Assembly: GCA_026874595.1 (NCBI GenBank)
Contig: CM049321.1
Location: 6,380,979-6,444,978, forward strand
Reading direction: 5' to 3'
Origin: Sipunculus nudus
Taxonomy: Eukaryota > Annelida > Sipuncula > Golfingiida > Sipunculidae
Length of the DNA stretch: 64,000 nt
The notes under the pieces are model-generated. The model did no database searches. It worked only from the letters and a program-made list of their open reading frames with translations, and was not told where the DNA came from. This document shows, piece by piece, positions 26,890 to 36,986 of this stretch (position 1 is the stretch's first letter; each line of letters opens with the position of its first letter). Made by a program: the position numbers and the translations under genes.

Positions 26890-27001
26890 CACTCTTAGAC
26901 ATGGCTGTAGTTTCACGGTAGAATACCGTAGAATTTAGACAGTACTACTGTGTTTTTACGTCCCCGCCGTACTTTGCCTAAAGAACGGTAGAATACCGTG
27001 A
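26890..27001. repeat. Left terminus and subterminal repeats of the EnSpm element
   Basis: After the inverted end, ACGGTAGAATACCGT occurs twice (near 26,914 and 26,984). These dyads are likely transposase binding sites by analogy with CACTA elements. Confidence 0.75.
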
Positions 27002-27179
27002 ATTGGACCAGAGCCTCCGCGATAACAGCGACCCGGGGTCATCTGGTCATTAAGGATCAGCCCGAGTATCCCGCGCGCGCGTGTATTCCTTTGTTAAGCA
27101 TCCGGGCATTCAGTACTGGACCAGCATTTGACCAGCACTTGGCCGCCATATTGACTGTTTGTACAGCTGCTCATCTTTA

Positions 27180-27195
27180 TGGTTCCCTGTTTCGA
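27180..27195 (+). other. Possible donor end of a non-coding transposase exon
   Basis: A strong donor (TTCGA then GTAAGTTT) lies inside the element, 605 bases before the acceptor of the first coding exon (GTCCTGCAG at 27,791-27,799). The exon's 5' limit is not defined. Confidence 0.35.
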
Positions 27196-27824
27196 GTAAG
27201 TTTACCCTTTAGCAGAAGTTTTATGTATTATTTGTAATATATCAGGATAGTTTTCAAATTACTGAGATTGGGCAGCTTTTGTTTGATTACCTTTGCTACT
27301 GACATACGCCAATATTAGTACAATAGTAAAATTGTTCACTGACACCGTGAGTACAGACCGTATCTTCACGAAAGCCCACATACTTGTTAGTATGTCGGCT
27401 CTGTGCTTTGCCAGTCGCATCCAGCCTACTAAATATCACATTTAGTGCAGATTTTTAATAGTGTTTAGTCTTTCTTACTATATTTAATGCAAATTTACCA
27501 TCAAGAGGTTATATATGTTAACAAATGCCAGTATATAAATTAGATTAAAAGCGTATTTTTGGCCTATTTTGTTTTATATTTGTTTTATCAATAACTTGTT
27601 TTCAGGTCCAAATAATATCGGTCCAAATTATGAAGGGGTTCCACAGGAAATGTGTATATGCAAGTACAAATTATTGACAGGTGAAACAATTCTGAGCCAT
27701 AATCCCTCTTGTGTGTATTTATAGTTTATCAGTTTAGATCGAATATTCGATTGCTGTTCTATACCATAACTCATAACTTTTCATTGCTTTGTCCTGCAGT
27801 ACGTGTCCCTGTTTAACACTCAAA

Positions 27825-30531
27825 ATGTACAAATGCACACTCTGCGCGCACGAATCTAAAAGTTTAAAAGCCTATGTAAACCATCACCAACTACATAAAG
27901 ACATTCCAAATGCTAAAATTCCATGTGGTGCGTGTGAACACCATGTAGACTCATATGATGCATTGAGAAGTCATGTTCTACTTTGTCATGGAGGGAGTGT
28001 AAAGGTTCAGTCAAGGTCAATGTTAGAAGAACAGGTTTCCTTAAAGTGCCATGTTTGTTTTTGCCAGGTCTGTTGATGGTCTGTCTGAGTTCATTACACA
28101 TTTAAGGTCACATATGGATAGACATGGAGAAATTTCCTGTCCCTTTAAAGGATGTGATACACCAAGCCCCAAATACAAAAATAATATTACATTTTCATCT
28201 CATTTGTCACGAAAACATCCAAACTCTGCCCTTTCAGACGTCCATGATGATGTTATAATGACAACAAGCATTTGTAACAATACATCATCAAACAATGACA
28301 TTTATTCCCAAGAATTGAGGAATAGTAATGACTTGTCAAGTGACAATTTGCAAATGTCACCCACATTTTCATTAAGTGGAGACAAACACTGTGATACTGG
28401 TGTCACAGAGGATTTAAATGTGAAAAGTTTAGCATTGTTTATTATCAAACTGCAAGCGAAACATTTAATTCCTGCATCTACTGTACAGGCTATTGTTAAT
28501 GAGATAAATGTGACAAATAATATAGGGCATAATGTCATATGTCTTAAAATGAAGAGACAACTCGAGGGCGAGGGTATTGAACAAGAGAAAATAGAAAACA
28601 TTATGAGGGAAATGGCTAATTTTAATGTTTTAGATAGGGCAACTTCCGGGCCGCTTCGCTCTGAACGAACCAGAATGACATATTTTGATGAAAATTTCTA
28701 CTATATTAAACCTGTTGAGATAAAACTAGGATTAGATGAGGATTTTGAAGAAATGTCCGCACAGTATGTCCCCATTACCAACTTCATTAAGGAACTATAC
28801 AGAAAGTACTGCGACAAGTTCAATTTTAGAACCAGTGGAGATACTGAAAAATCTGAAGTTCTCGCTGATCTACATGATGGTATTGTTTTCCAGTCAAATG
28901 AGTTGTTTAAACAAAAGGGCTTTCAAATAATATTATATCAAGATGTCTTTGAGGTAGTAAATCCTCAGGGATCGGCAAAGAAAAAAAACACAACGTTATA
29001 GCAGTATACTATACCCTGGCAAATTTTGAAGCCCATTCCCGATCAGCAATTGACCATTTTCAGTTAGTATTACTTTGCAAGGAGAAACATTTCTCCGTTT
29101 CAAATCTGAGGGCTTTCAAAAAGTATTTGCTCCCTTGTTACATGATTTGAAGTTTCTCGAAAATAGTGGTATTACCACTGAGAACGGTGACGTTATAAAG
29201 GGTACATTGGTTTGTATCACAGGGGATAACTTAGGGTCTCACACCATTGGGGGTTTCTTTGAAAACTTTAGCAATGCTCCCTACATCTGTCGCTTTTGTG
29301 ACCTCACTAGGGTTGCATTTAACGATTCTCCACTTTCACTGGGAAATGATAGGACAATTAAGTCTTATAAAAAATGTATAGAGAATCTACATAAAAATCC
29401 AGATGCGTCTGGAGCTTGTAACGGCATTAAATTTGACTCATTTTTTAATGCTCTTAAATCGTTCCATATATGTCTACCAGGGCCTTCCACATTGTATCGG
29501 GCATGATTTATTTGAGGGCGTTGTTTCCTATGATATGATGTTGATAATTAAATATTTTGTGCAAAAGCAAAGGCCGTCCTGGTTTACTCTGCAACAATTA
29601 AATAGAGACATAGCAAGAACTGAATATAAAGGTAACGACAGCAGAGACAGACCCTGTGAAGTAAATCTCAAATCAGAAAAACTGAGTGGTCACGCTGTGC
29701 AAAACTGGGTGTTTGTCAGATTATTTTCTTTATTTATTGGTCAGTACATACAGCATTTTGATGATCCTGTTTGGCAAATGTATTTGAAATTGAAAGAAAT
29801 TGTAGAAATTGTCTGTGCTCCTAGAATTTCTATGACTCAGGTTGTCTACTAAAAAATGTGTATTGAAGATTACATGCAGGACAGAAAAGATATCTTTCCA
29901 GATGTTAATTTGCGTCCAAAACACCACTACATTTGCCATTACCCTGATTTAATTGCTAAGTTTGGGCCACTGATCAGACTGTGGACGATGAGATTCGAGA
30001 GCAAGCACTCTTATTTCAAAAGATTTGCTAGAGTTCTCCAGAATTACTGTCTGCTAGTCCTTAGCAGTTAAACATCAGGTGTTGCAAGCATATTACAGTG
30101 AAGGATCATTGTTCCCAAGTGTGCTGCAAGTTCATAATTCGTTACCATATCACAGGGACATTTTCAGCATAGAAGTGCTAGACCCAATGTCTAAATACAA
30201 CTTCAGTGAAACAGACACAGTTGTATCCAGTTCTATCACGTATAAAGGGACCCTTGATAAGAAGAATCAATTCATTTTAGTGAGCAATGGTGACGATGGC
30301 TTAGTTATTGGAAAAACAGTTTTGATGCTCGTGCAGGACAACACGGAAGTCTTTTTTAATTTGAATCTGTACAAAACATTAAAGATTGGGGATTATGGCT
30401 CTCATATCTTAGACAATTTTCATGGATATTATTGTGTCCCTTTCAGTCGTTTGTTGGACTATCATCCAATTGATAATTTCTGCCAAACATGGGAAAAAGT
30501 GGTTTTGACTGCACCATTCATTTTATTTTGA
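27825..30531 (+). pseudogene. EnSpm transposase (zinc-finger/DDE), broken by frameshifts
   Basis: N-terminal C2H2 fingers (CTLCAH, CGACEHH, then CHVCF and HLRSHMDRH) are followed by the DDE region. That region contains YQDVFEVVNPQGSA (first Asp candidate), CITGDNLGSHTIGGFFENF (second), NAPYICRFCDL (the C2C pair typical of CMC enzymes), and GHDLFEGVV or MRFESKHSYF (Glu candidates). The C-terminal part includes LRPKHHYICHYPDL. Breaks: one extra T in a T5 run near 28,058; one extra A in an A8 run near 28,980; shifts near 29,085, 29,482 and 30,055; and TAA at 29,850-29,852. Several lie in short homopolymers, so sequencing error is possible for those. No continuous protein exists as given. Confidence 0.85.
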
Positions 30532-30694
30532 TTTTGTTCTTAAACTTCACTAGCCATGGTAAAGTCTAAGTGTACATGATTAGTCCACTTTTTTCAATTT
30601 TTAAGTTTTGATTCATTTATAAATTTAAAAAAGATACATTGCCCAGATCAATGGCAACAACAAAGATGAAAAATGTAGTCAAGTGTAAAATTTT

Positions 30695-30917
30695 ATGAAC
30701 ATTATCAGTTTAGAAATGGCCATCCCAGTCTGCATAACTGAAGAAGTCAGGAAAGTAATTGATGCTGGTGACAAGCTGGATGACCTTTGCTTGGCTATTC
30801 ATGAAGCTGGTGTAACAAAGAAAGAGGAGCTGGAGTTTCTTGAAGAGGGAGATCTGACTGTTTGCATCAGCGAAATCCAGGCCAGGCAGCTGATAAAAGC
30901 ATGGAAATCAGGACAAG
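30695..30917 (+). CDS. SAM gene exon 1: SAM-like domain
   Basis: The donor is GTATTT after GGACAAG. The in-frame read-through continues only 39 codons before stopping, whereas splicing to 32,466 restores a long frame. Confidence 0.75.
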
Positions 30918-33900
30918 GTATTTTTTCCTATTCTCAGTTCTATCTGTACATCACAACCATAAGGCAGTATATAAAGTTCTATGATCAAAGTCTAGATTAT
31001 ATCAGTAAAAGGCCTAATGTGTACATAACATAACAACTTTCAATCTTACACATGTTAAGGTGTTTGCAATAACATTAAATCTACCATACAATAACCAGCT
31101 GGTCTTGATAACATGAGAGAAAATGTCTCCTTTGTATATCAAGGTGAATGAAAATCCCCATTTACACACACCATGGGGGTCTGAACACAGCATGTGTGGT
31201 GGCTGCTGAAAGCACCATACAAGCAAACATGAATCAGCCGGAAGTTGTTAATTGCATTTCAGCCAGCCTGTCCAGCTACTGGCATAATGAATGTTGGGCT
31301 ATGATACCTTATTGAGCATTACAATTTTTTTTTTAAGTTTTCTGACTCCCGCATGTCAGGAATTCTACTGACATAATATGAATTCTCCTTTTTGTTAGCT
31401 TTTACGTAAGGGTTTAAATATAGATATGTGTATCGTCAGCCTATTCAGATTCAAACATATTGCAATACACTTCTGGTGATTCCCTATTGACGATACTTTG
31501 TGTCACATTTCTTCAACCCTTCTGTTTACATTTTATTGATAAAAGTATAAGCTATACTTTTCTGTGTCATATAATAACATATTATGCGTATAATTTCAAT
31601 AACAAGAATCTTATAAAGTTTACAATGGTATCAGGGCTGTTAAAAATCGACTTTTGTTTAATGAAATCATGATTTTTTACCTTTTTTTATTTAAATCGAC
31701 TTTTATTGATTTAAATCAACTAATGAGACATTAAATGATAAATTATTAATATCTTCGATTTTTATTAAATAAATTGACAGTATTTGTAATAGAGATTATT
31801 ATGACAGTATTCCAAACTAAAGAGTAATGGTAGCATTTTATTTAATGACCTCATAATTTAATGGTAACAATATGTAAACTGATCTCGATTTCATGAACTA
31901 AGAGTAAAGTAATGCACCTGTATTTATTATTACTCAGACGCGCTGGATTTTCATAGAAACACCGTATCGATCATATGGCAATACGTTTGTTCATATTTGC
32001 TTTAGCTTGGTAAAGTAACAAATACATATCGGATATAGCTTTATAAATAACTTAGGTTATAGTTTAGTTAAGAGCTGAATCATTAATCATTTGCAGTCAT
32101 TTTTTCTCTTCGATACGACAATATAGCATGCTAAGAATATTGCGAACTGCATGTATCGTCATAACGTATTGATACGAAGTATCTAATAGTCATTAACGCC
32201 GTAATTAACTTTACCCCCCCCCCCCTATCCGAAATATATTCATCTAACAGAAGCCTAGTAAATATAATAATACACAAACACAAACTCTAGGTCTACAACG
32301 AGCCGTGAACTTAGCTTTCAGACTCATTTGGTTATTCTTAGTTATATATTTATCTAATTCTATGTCTCTTAAATTTGCTTTTCTTAATTTAATTGAAAGC
32401 GACAAATATGATGTGTTAAGTGTATCATTCAATTACTAACGCCAACGTTATTATATATATTTCAGCGTTAACAGCCACGCCGACAAAACCAAGTGGCGAG
32501 TGTCCTGCAACGCATGATCAAACGAATGAACGGCTATACCTACGAAGTATAACGAGCCCTTCGAACATTGACCTCGCCTGTGCTAACAAATTCGAGGTTC
32601 CCTGGGGGAATATGCCACTATCCTTGACAAACAAGTTAAAGAAAGGTAAAACACTGGACAAAAAAGCCAGGAAGGTGCTCGTTAGCACCATCTTGGACAA
32701 AGTTTTGATAATAAACCCAAGACTGGGCAAGAAAGACCTTGAAGTAATTGCGAAACAAGTAGTTAATACATATCCAGATTCGCTTGAGGATCGCTTCAAC
32801 CATGAGCGCATGGAAAGAGGATTTGACATCATGTTAAATCAGATGATAAATCGTCGGGACAATGAGGTGAGACCGAAGGAAACTGCTTCCCCAAAAGTCA
32901 AGCGTAAGCTCCCAACTGAGCCTGAAGGATCTCCACTCCGCAAAAAAATAGACATTGGCAGAGACGCCTATGGGTGTGTCAAGTGGCAAATCGACCCGTC
33001 TTATTTCAAAGAGGGTACCAAAGAACACACATTCGCCCTACAGAGGCAAGACATCATCTCTGGTATCCAGGTACCAGAGTTAAAACAGATGTGGCCAACA
33101 TTCTTCGTTACTGACGAATACCTCGCCCATGCGGACGAGGTTATAGGTATACCTGCCATCAGAATTATGACTGAAGCCCTAAAATTGAAGGGAGGGAGGC
33201 TACTTTCCTTTATGCAGAAAAACCACCGAACAGAAGCCCTCATGGAGGACATCAGCCAGGCATTGGAGGAAGGAGACAGCTGCAGGGAGATGCTACCCGC
33301 CATACCGAAGTGTCTTGCGATGTACTTCAAAGAAGACATCAAGTTGCTATTCGCTGAAGTAGAGGTGAATAGATTTATTGTATAACTAGTCCGATTTTCT
33401 TTATTTAGAAAACGATACCTTCACACTGTTAAAGGACTAATTTTTTTTTCATTTATTGTTCTGAAGAAATATAGCTTATAGTAACACTTCTTAAATGCAT
33501 GTAAATACATTTGTCAAACAGGTGTAAACATCACTCAACGAAACAATACTACTATTAAAACAAATAATTCAACATAACATATATATTTTAAATCACAACT
33601 TGCAGATTAAAGGTTGCAGGTAACATGGCCACTGACTGGAAGCATTAATTGTAGCATTACATTATTTATAATCATATTTAGAGGAGCTTATTTTTATATG
33701 GTTACTCTTCTGTAGGAAGCTGTAACTGTAAAAGTAATTCAACTTTCTGTTAACAGGAAACAAGTACACCAACGGATGTTCTCCAGATGGACCTTCCCTC
33801 CACTCCGTGCTTAGCTGTTTTTGGTGAGTAACCTTTTCTTTAAAGTTCTCAGTTTATATGTAGAAGTTAGAAAATAAAAAATATAATAAAATTGATTCTA

Positions 33901-35305
33901 AAATACCAGCATTAAGCATTAAAATCTAGCATCAAGCTACTTTTTTTAGCTCATCTGACTATAAGTCATCTGAGCTATAGTCGTGGTCCATTGTCCGTCG
34001 TCCGTCCGTCTGTCCGTCCGTCCGTCCGAATTATATCTGTGTGCATAATGTGATGTTACCTGACTAAAATAATTATAAATATTGATGCAATTTAGATTCA
34101 TGAATCAATTTAAATATTCAGATATATATATATATATGATATACTGTTAAAATATAGTAAAATTTATAAACCTAAAAAAAAAATTACTTAACAAAAGAAA
34201 AAATAGGATATAATGCAAATATTTGTTCATTATTTTCCTGTCTCGGTAGAATGAAATTAAAGTTATTTGCTTTGTTTTCCATCTCTCTGCCTGTTTTTAA
34301 ATATTTAAAAATAATTGCATTTAAATTAAATTTTATCTTTTACGTATATACAGAGGTGCTGTAACTCCCACCAGTCCCTGTAAGCACCATTGAATTTAAT
34401 TCCGTATTCTTTATTTATATCCAAACGTGTTGAAACCCCCCCCCCAGTCATTGAGCCCTAGTTCCTGAGCACTGGGGATTGTATTTTTATTACAACTTCA
34501 AAACATCTATGGTGATCCAGTTATAACTGTCACAATCAGCTGAGCGCCGTGACCCATGGGTCCCTTGTTCATATGCTTTTTGAAAATTCGAGAAAAATAA
34601 CAATTTTAGCCAGTATAAATATCAATTGCAACAGTATCACTGCTTTCAAGTCCCGATACTTTTTAATGTCTTTAATGTTTATTCACACAAATAGTGCCCA
34701 CTTGAGAACACAAAATGATAGCAAGATATTTATATGTTCTTCTACATTGTTATTTTAGGAGACCTTCTAAAAGCAAGCCGCTTCATGCTGTCAATTGGTT
34801 GGTGCATCGTCAACGATGAAATCTGTGGTTTCATCCCTGCATTTGAACGGAAGGTGTAAGGGCGACATGGCATTTTAATCAGTGTCCAATAAACTAACTG
34901 CCGTCTGCTCTCATTCACTTTATCCTGATATATTATAGGTACCTCACCTAGACCAAGAATTTTATTCAAGCAGGTGTCCACACCAGAATGTGAATTACTT
35001 AATCATATTTAATGATACACATTGTAAATAATTACTTTCATGTTTTAAAATTCCCCTGTCTTCTATCCTTTTTGCAAATTGATATAAAAGAATCTGTTCA
35101 CACAAAGCTTCAATGCTAGACAAGACTGGATACCTAACAGGTTTATCACAAAGTAAATAAAGCCTTATACAGTTCAAATCACTAACAATGTTTTTATCTG
35201 TATTCCAGATGTTTCATGGGCATCAACCCCACTTCAGGGTCGAAGGCAGAAAAATCAGTCAGGAAGGAAACATTCATCACCAATCCGCGAGTCTTAACCT
35301 TATAA
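30716..35305 (+). CDS. SAM-domain accessory protein of the EnSpm element, five exons, 453 aa, intact
   Basis: I joined exons 30716-30917, 32466-33364, 33757-33823, 34759-34855 and 35209-35305. Every intron is GT/AG, phases match (1, 0, 1, 2), and the total is 1362 nt, exactly 454 codons with one terminal stop. The N-terminus (about residues 1-65) looks like a SAM domain: alternating helices with GVTKKEELEFLEEGDL and QARQLIKAWK. The C-terminal half carries YGCVKWQ, QMWPTFFVTDEYLAHADEV and a final INPTSGSKAEKS...NPRVLTL segment, as in SAMD3-like proteins that I associate with EnSpm-like loci in animals. SAM domains oligomerise, so a role with the transposase is plausible but unproven. An upstream ATG at 30,695 would add seven residues. 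Confidence 0.8.
31629..31735 (+). repeat. Possible hAT-like terminus in an intron of the SAM gene
   Basis: CAGGGCTGTTAAAAATCGAC followed by repeated AAATCGACTTTT and GATTTAAATCAA blocks resembles the end of a hAT MITE. I could not find the other end or a target duplication. Confidence 0.35.
32466..33364 (+). CDS. SAM gene exon 2: linker and conserved core
   Basis: Acceptor TATTTCAG, donor GTGAAT (non-ideal). It is 899 nt. It contains a PWGNMPLSL motif, a basic proline-rich linker (SPKVKRKLPTEPEGSPLRKK, a possible nuclear localisation signal) and the conserved YGCVKWQ region. Confidence 0.8.
33757..33823 (+). CDS. SAM gene exon 3
   Basis: 67 nt between TTAACAG and GTGAGT, reading ETSTPTDVLQMDLP then STPCLAVFG. 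Phase 0 in, 1 out. Confidence 0.75.
33946..34569 (+). mobile_element. Short Helentron-like element nested in intron 3 of the SAM gene
   Basis: Left end TTAGCTCATCTGACTATAAG then TCATCTGAGCTATAG is a terminal hairpin, followed by GTCCGTCC repeats. The right end is GCTGAGCGCCGTGACCCATGG then GTCCCTTGTT, with the palindrome GACCCATGGGTC. Both ends match the longer copy at 59,907-63,067. Similar ends are common in mollusc genomes; the Helentron assignment is inference from the terminal stem-loop and T-T borders. Confidence 0.6.
34759..34855 (+). CDS. SAM gene exon 4
   Basis: 97 nt between TATTTTAG and GTAAGG. Two donors overlap (GTGTAA and GTAAGG, two bases apart). Only the second keeps the family-like C-terminus in frame, and it is also the better consensus. 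Confidence 0.75.
35209..35305 (+). CDS. SAM gene exon 5 and stop
   Basis: The acceptor is TATTCCAG. It reads VCFMGINPTSGSKAEKS, then NPRVLTL and TAA. This lysine-rich NP..L ending fits the family. Confidence 0.75.
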
Positions 35306-35852
35306 ACGAAGCTTGGTGAGATGGAATGGACTGGCTGAAGCAATAGAGCTTCTAATGACTAATATTATTATTGTGATAATCAGTGATACTTCAAATTAAT
35401 GATCCAGTTCATTTTGTACTGTCATTATTTATTTATTTATTTTTTTGTGATGTATTACTTTGAGAGTGTTATATAAAAGAATAATATTTCCGTTATAAGG
35501 CTAACAACCACATGGTGCTATGCCATTTATTGGTCAAAATCTTAAAATGATTTAAATGGATAAGTATTGATTACATAATTGGCCCTTAATAAACGCAGTA
35601 AATTTAATTACTGAACACGGCTTCACTTATTATTCTCATGTACTTGCAAACATTCAGATTTCATGCTAGGACACCCAGACCAATATGTAATTAATTGCAT
35701 AATTTTAATATTTGACTTGCTAGTAAGTCATCAATAGTCATAAATGTTATATATATATGTCTATAACTATAACCTGTTAAACTGTTTTATAACCTGTTAC
35801 AAAGAACACCGTTTGGTGTGGATGGATAACATTTTTGCTGTTTACTTTGATA

Positions 35853-35892
35853 CCAGGAGCAATAACAACATTATTCCAAACTAGATGACAGG

Positions 35893-35939
<47 letters not shown>

Positions 35940-36072
35940 GACAGATATTGATTGTGTTATTCTTTTTCAAATGTCATGTTTATATCAGGAGCAATAACAA
36001 CATTATTCGAAACTAGATGACAGGCAAATATAGCGGTCTATATATATATATACGGTGTGTGTGTGTATATAT

Positions 36073-36126
<54 letters not shown>

Positions 36127-36225
36127 TATGAAAGATGTCGGTTGTGATGTTCTTTTTCAAATATCATGTTTATACCAGGAGCAATGACATCATTATTCGA
36201 AACTAGATGGCGGGCACTTAAAGCG

Positions 36226-36309
<84 letters not shown>

Positions 36310-36430
36310 TCTTTGAAACATGTTGATTGTGTTTTTTTTCTTCAAATATCATGTTTGTACCAGGAGCAAAAACAACATTATTTCATTAGCTGGCAGGCAC
36401 TTATAGCGGTCATTATATATATATGGCGCC

Positions 36431-36486
<56 letters not shown>

Positions 36487-36540
36487 TCTATGTTGATAGT
36501 GTTATTCTTTTTCGAATATCATTTTTTTCATAACAAAGTG
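35853..36540 (+). repeat. Tandem array of TA-bearing units, about 130-190 bp each
   Basis: CAGGAGCAAtaACAaCATTATT followed by a TAGATG/GCAGG segment starts near 35,854, 35,986, 36,176 and 36,360. Each unit contains its own long TA microsatellite, then TGTTGATTGTG-TTCTTTTTCAAATATCAT. A fifth, truncated unit ends near 36,530. It lies between the SAM gene and the right terminus. Confidence 0.85.
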
Positions 36541-36707
36541 TTTCATTCATAATCTATTTCTTCCTTTTTGCCTTTCTTTAATGAACGAACATATAACAGT
36601 AATTACACGATTTTTCTGTCGATCAGCGTAAAGATGCTGGATCCCGCAATTTCAAGGTATGATACCATACCATTATGATATATGAATTAATTATAAATAG
36701 TTTTAAC

Positions 36708-36986
36708 GGGACTTTACGGTTATTATACGTTATAACGTACTTTTACAAGTACGGTAGTCTACCATAATTTAACGGCACGCCGTACATTCCTAAATACGGT
36801 AGTCTACCGTAATTCAACGGCATACCGTACCTTCCAATGTACGGTAGTCTACCGTAAAACAAAGGCCTGCCGTACCTTTCAAATTACGGTAGTCTACCGT
36901 AACTTAACGTCCTACCGTATTTTAAAGGATTCGGCCTACCGTTATTTATCGGTATACCGTAAAACTACGGCGCGTGTCTAAGAGTG
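36708..36986. repeat. Right terminus and subterminal repeats of the EnSpm element
   Basis: ACGGTAGTCTACCGTAA recurs four times at about 43-base spacing (36,752, 36,796, 36,840, 36,884; the first with CCATAA), followed by the degenerate ACCGTTATTTATCGGT and the inverted end. Confidence 0.85.

Follow-up and report, generated by a model that had tools for sequence, protein, structure and literature searches.

The stretch of DNA considered here (the window) comprises 64,000 nucleotides of the genome of Sipunculus nudus (contig CM049321.1; G000:C16:6380979-6444978; genome 1.43 Gb), and positions 26890-36986 of it are a single element of the EnSpm/CACTA type. The element is probably a decayed, low-copy, two-gene animal member of this group that carries a zinc-finger transposase gene and, downstream of it, a multi-exon SAM-like gene, with decay that is recent. 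Genes related to the second one are found downstream of a transposase at many loci, and both genes lie between the ends here and in another element at C6:26.2 Mb, where they are enclosed by inverted ends TACACTGTGAAAA.

The element and its ends

The element is delimited by 12-bp terminal inverted repeats, CACTCTTAGACA at 26890-26901 (forward strand) and its reverse complement at 36975-36986 (reverse strand), which begin with CACT, as EnSpm/CACTA ends do. The dinucleotide TA stands immediately outside each of them. As for a target-site duplication, the flanking bases hold this TA and no 3-bp match, and TA also stands beside two of the six related left ends that were inspected among 28 found elsewhere. 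Repeated subterminal motifs, likewise a mark of the group, are present at both ends. On the left, a motif search of the window located palindromes ACGGTAGAATACCGT at 26915-26999 (copies at 26915-26929 and 26985-26999); on the right, an array of about five 45-bp units carrying palindromes occupies 36706-36930. The palindrome ACGGTAGnnTACCGT has six sites, of which five are exact and one has a single mismatch; two of the six lie close to the left end, the other four close to the right. A search of the window that allowed at most one mismatch gave twelve strand matches against 0.03 expected, none of them away from the two ends. The EnSpm assignment made in a preliminary description of this DNA is borne out by the inverted CACT ends and the subterminal palindromes. 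At 35895-36490, downstream of the second gene and before the right end, long TA repeats alternate with related units of about 180 bp.

The transposase gene

The transposase gene extends over about 27825-30531 on the forward strand, as delineated by genome matches of its pieces and by open homologues. A three-frame reading recovers the five frame breaks and one stop reported earlier: the frame changes near 28063, 28986, 29090, 29480 and 30058, and an in-frame TAA is found at 29850. Two homologues in the same assembly, of 823 (L037) and 843 (L038) amino acids, each consist of one uninterrupted frame; open-frame lengths were verified by a listing of open reading frames (ORFs) for these two only. 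Because both homologues are single-exon genes, the breaks in the window copy are not introns. Moreover, the copy at C12:20.68 Mb is open at all six places where the window copy is damaged and broken at two others (frames read by eye). The closest other full-length match to a piece of the window transposase has 39% amino acid identity. A frame of 2249 amino acids that also matched was rejected, as it runs through N letters.

A Pfam search with the pieces of the window transposase gave no transposase match, Transposase_21 (TNP2) included. In the two open homologues, Transposase_21 is matched with E values of 5.4e-05 (L037) and 0.0083 (L038), both under the Pfam gathering score, and the same holds for their zinc-finger matches. 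Elsewhere, at G000:C17:50611761-50612666, a 33% match to the transposase contains six TGA stops, which may reflect CpG decay.

The second gene

The second gene lies on the forward strand and is modelled as five exons joined by GT-AG introns, encoding 453 amino acids and a stop in 1,362 spliced bases, which agrees with the 454-codon, five-exon partner gene of the preliminary description. Exon 1 (30716-30917) is SAM-like, exon 2 (32466-33364) is the main conserved part, and exons 3 (33757-33823), 4 (34759-34855) and 5 (35209-35305) follow; an alternative start ATG at 30695 would add seven codons. The frame of exon 5 is backed by a motif, GINPxxGSK, that recurs at four other loci (C12:68.6, C4:40.1, C15:31.6 and C6:26.2 Mb; E 0.003-0.013 each), where it lies some 1.5-1.8 kb past exon 2. 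The exon 5 frame proposed earlier is correct, as the conserved frame gives the same 454-codon count. The stop of the window copy (TAA at 35303-35305) is probably early and looks like a late truncation, because the frame continues for about 7-13 more codons in three relatives and the codons that follow the stop in the window, TKLGEMEWTG, resemble the tail of the C4 copy. In particular, the C4 copy ends in EWTI, the one at C12:68.6 Mb in DWTI and the C15 copy in LREM, while the C6 copy is out of frame there.

The identity of the N-terminus is less firm than the gene structure. Although the open five-exon gene stands, its designation as a SAM gene is weak: Pfam SAM_TNK matches exon 1 with an E value of 0.11-0.14 and 13 bits, where the curated cut-off is 25, and the domain is therefore called only SAM-like here. 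SAM matches were obtained with three of five related first exons (best E 0.0046). In the PDB, exon 1 alone found no match, and alignments of second-gene sequences found nothing below E 0.4 and no SAM structure. The exon 2 alignment was built from six of the nine loci then known (leaving aside the C16:37.595 Mb relict, C16:37.65 and C6:26.2) and the exon 1 alignment from five first exons (leaving aside C16:37.65). The combination of a SAM-like N-terminus with a conserved body may recall SAMD3-like predicted proteins of fish and invertebrates.

The second gene as a companion of the transposase

Second-gene loci were collected with exon 2 of the window copy (10 matches) and of the C15 copy (27 matches), which merge into at least 22 loci; with two transposase sequences as queries, 148 matches were obtained, which merge into at least 90 loci. 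Both counts are lower bounds, drawn from the best candidates scored. Among the matches listed, a transposase lies 911-7254 bases upstream, in the same orientation, at 12 of the 22 exon 2 loci, where 0.007 would be expected; thus, the second gene is a companion of the transposase and no passenger. At C12:20.68 Mb, only a 5' end was found. The 11 transposase/second-gene pairs outside the window all show stops, frame breaks or merely partial transposase matches, so that no intact transposase is shown among the 12 paired loci. A full-length open exon 2 is found at three of the 22 listed loci only (the window, C12:20.68 and C15:31.6 Mb). In this assembly, the SAM-bearing lineage seems to have died out or to be close to it.

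In plants, TnpA is thought to pair the element ends for the transposase. By analogy, the second protein of the window element would bind the subterminal palindromes ACGGTAGnnTACCGT and oligomerise via its N-terminal domain, bringing the ends together for the transposase. Such a TnpA-like mechanism is inferred from the position of the gene, the subterminal palindromes and the plant precedent. The transposase would then have failed, and decay of both genes would have followed. That the second gene still reads through is probably due to its being half as long, to the recency of the failure and to luck.

Recent decay or retention by the host

The preliminary description had proposed that, if the breaks are real, the survival of the accessory gene suggests either selection (domestication) or mobilisation in trans. 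Under domestication, the host would have put this copy's second gene to a use of its own once the transposase was dead. The frame is indeed open across five exons with GT-AG introns. The difference in lesions between the genes could, however, be due to chance. Six lesions in 2,707 transposase bases against none in 1,380 second-gene bases (a length set by hand; the spliced gene has 1,362) give P = 0.084, and when the early stop is counted, so that one of seven lesions falls in the second gene, P rises to 0.26.

A sister relict at C16:37.595 Mb, which spans the element from intron 1 to the right end and has no transposase, allows the two copies to be compared. The preliminary description had looked to the ratio of nonsynonymous to synonymous substitution rates (dN/dS) between copies; over 277 codons it is 0.58 between the window and the relict. 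This point estimate lies below 1, as retention would have it, but its bootstrap range is 0.36-1.02 and the relict is itself decaying. Exons 2, 3 and 4 are 89.5%, 89.6% and 82.1% identical between the two copies, and the introns 81.7-88.7% (a short, poorly aligned start of intron 4 left out). With C11:37.54 Mb as the outgroup, the intron 3 changes divide into eight in the window copy and 12 in the relict, and those of exon 4 into six and three. The 52 nonsynonymous codon differences in exon 2 include 26 that could be polarised by outgroup identity, ten on the window copy and 16 on the relict. The window share of amino acid changes (10/26) therefore matches that of intron 3 changes (8/20; Fisher P = 1), though these samples are small and the exon 2 outgroups are distant, at 25-30% identity. 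Moreover, two conserved residues of exon 2 have changed in the window copy: W39, which is W in each of the four outgroups that have a residue at this position, and P87, which is P in all five; the relict agrees with the outgroups at both.

The rate of decay can also be gauged from a high-copy repeat in intron 3 (34028-34569) that is absent from the sister relict. It differs by 4.0% from a consensus of 16 other copies (21 substitutions in 534 bases and four gap runs), these being 16 of at least 38 further copies scored, which have 88-93% identity. If 80% of indels are taken as frame-shifting and the repeat is assumed to have been identical to the consensus on arrival, neutral decay since its insertion can be expressed in lesions. 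The window repeat is the farthest of 17 from the consensus of the other 16, and the clock may therefore run fast.

Several of these results weigh against the interpretation of the element as a recently decayed two-gene transposon. The repeat clock predicts 10.5 neutral lesions in the second gene, where none or one is observed, and 20.7 in the transposase, where there are six; scaled to the transposase count, 3.1 lesions would be expected in the second gene, and the probability of none is 0.047. In the relict, exon 2 is interrupted by two stops and has nine indels, of which two have lengths divisible by three, whereas that of the window has no stop. In exon 4, three of the six window changes are silent, as against none of the three on the relict, which favours selection. 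As to the partnership of the two genes, ten of the 22 exon 2 loci have no listed transposase match within 10 kb upstream (C16:37.595, C12:68.6, C15:31.6, C13:5.8, C6:38.1, C12:35.6, C4:39.2, C10:73.9, C3:27.2 and C4:75.2 Mb). As to the mechanism, the SAM and Transposase_21 matches both fall below the Pfam cut-offs.

As the clock predicts so many lesions in each, the two genes were probably maintained over part of the period that followed the insertion of the repeat, the second gene perhaps only as long as the element was active. This is most simply explained if the element was still mobile at that time. On balance, the window copy is not clearly spared relative to the relict. Six transposase lesions, the probable early stop and the changes at W39 and P87 are all signs of decay in this copy. 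The open five-exon frame, the shortfall of lesions against the clock, the dN/dS point estimate and the silent share of exon 4 changes speak for domestication; the lesion contrast, the probable C-terminal truncation, the two altered residues and a distribution of amino acid changes no different from that in the intron speak against it. Overall, retention by the host is improbable, and the open frame does not in itself demonstrate it. The C15 copy (G000:C15:31606625-31607557; L032:625-1557) has an open exon 2 of 311 amino acids together with the exon 5 motif, and no transposase match was found within about 9 kb upstream of it. It is perhaps a better candidate for domestication than the window copy.

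Mobilisation in trans and assembly errors as less likely alternatives

Mobilisation in trans was the other possibility raised earlier: the element would survive as a non-autonomous carrier that relies on a transposase encoded elsewhere and retains only its second gene. In favour of this, the left end of the element recurs at 28 other places (in 27 of them over 62-125 bp only), the sister copy preserves second-gene exons along with the right end but lacks a transposase, and one whole element lacks a long frame. The latter (L055; G000:C11:42558000-42561850) is 3.7 kb long, and both its ends match the left 116 bp of the window element at about 79%; its arms give the same 77-amino-acid reading, no frame exceeds 114 amino acids, and it is likely a non-autonomous relative. 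However, the search found nothing nearly identical to the body of the window element; in its second-gene region, with the inserted repeat set aside, the best other matches reach 80-86%. Since other full-length matches to a piece of the transposase reach at most 39% amino acid identity, present-day mobilisation by the element's own subfamily appears unlikely; mobilisation of related ends in the past is plausible. As an account of the window element, mobilisation in trans is about as improbable as domestication.

An assembly artefact as the source of the transposase breaks, with an element that is in fact almost intact, is very improbable: two of the five shifts do lie in runs (of 5 and 8), but the other three have no run of four or more within 15 bases, the stop lies away from long runs as well, the 823- and 843-amino-acid frames are uninterrupted in the same assembly, the genome search found no close intact copy, and the other 11 pairs are also broken or partial.

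Other families and their possible second genes

The ORFs downstream of the L037 and L038 transposases resemble a different second gene. They lie at 4814-5122 of L037 and 3077-6035 of L038, appear PB1-like by eye and have no Pfam match above the cut-off; perhaps they are second genes with N-terminal domains unlike SAM. The 103-amino-acid ORF of the 823-amino-acid family has 13 matches at 12 loci, ten of them at 100% identity, which reflects youth. At each of the 12 loci, a transposase match precedes the ORF by 1,994-2,054 bases, a constant spacing that is expected for copies of one young element. The ORF is a candidate gene on the strength of its position and a weak match to DUF5537 (E 0.00027, below the Pfam cut-off). 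Judged by stops inside the matches, seven of the 12 transposases of this family are open and five interrupted; the ORF is open in all seven copies of the first kind and in four of the five of the second. Young copies thus also combine a broken transposase with an open downstream ORF, though the control is weak because the ORF has only 309 bases.

No firm threshold was passed in comparisons among the second genes: hhalign aligned the L038 exons to the SAM-like body with E 0.0036 and a probability of 9%, and the L037 and L038 ORFs share an 11-residue match (E 0.12). A broader generalisation is tentative and rather unlikely as it stands, namely that animal CACTA elements form a wide two-gene class, in which a zinc-finger transposase is accompanied by a fast-evolving second protein, an animal counterpart of TnpA that would assemble the ends by oligomerisation. 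Its N-terminal module would be swapped (SAM-like here, another in the 823- and 843-amino-acid families), while a W-P...LP body would be kept.

Relation to known CACTA elements

The window element resembles plant En/Spm (CACTA) elements, with their TnpA and TnpD, in its CACT ends, its subterminal repeats and its combination of a transposase with a second protein (plant features partly after PMC1636069). In contrast to the plant elements, the second protein here is encoded by a distinct multi-exon gene that lies downstream and whose product has a SAM-like N-terminus. SmTRC1 and other animal TRC elements are described in PMC1636069 as CACTA relatives with Transposase_21 that show a 2-bp direct repeat at seven of 14 copies; a TnpA-like role has been proposed there for a protein without a transposase domain. 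According to the same source, their terminal inverted repeats start with CCC, whereas those of the window element start with CACT; in addition, the TnpA-like candidate here is a separate gene that is related across subfamilies. A SAM gene in EnSpm/CACTA elements was not found in the titles and abstract openings of the papers listed by literature searches; two papers (PMC11760641 and PMC7070046) contain both terms. Most likely, the element belongs to an under-described two-gene CACTA lineage.

These results call for caution: domestication does not follow simply from an accessory gene that stays open while the neighbouring transposase is broken. The second gene provides a testable candidate for end pairing in animal CACTA elements without a recognisable TnpA, a status that it owes to its company with a transposase at 12 of 22 listed loci, across diverged subfamilies.

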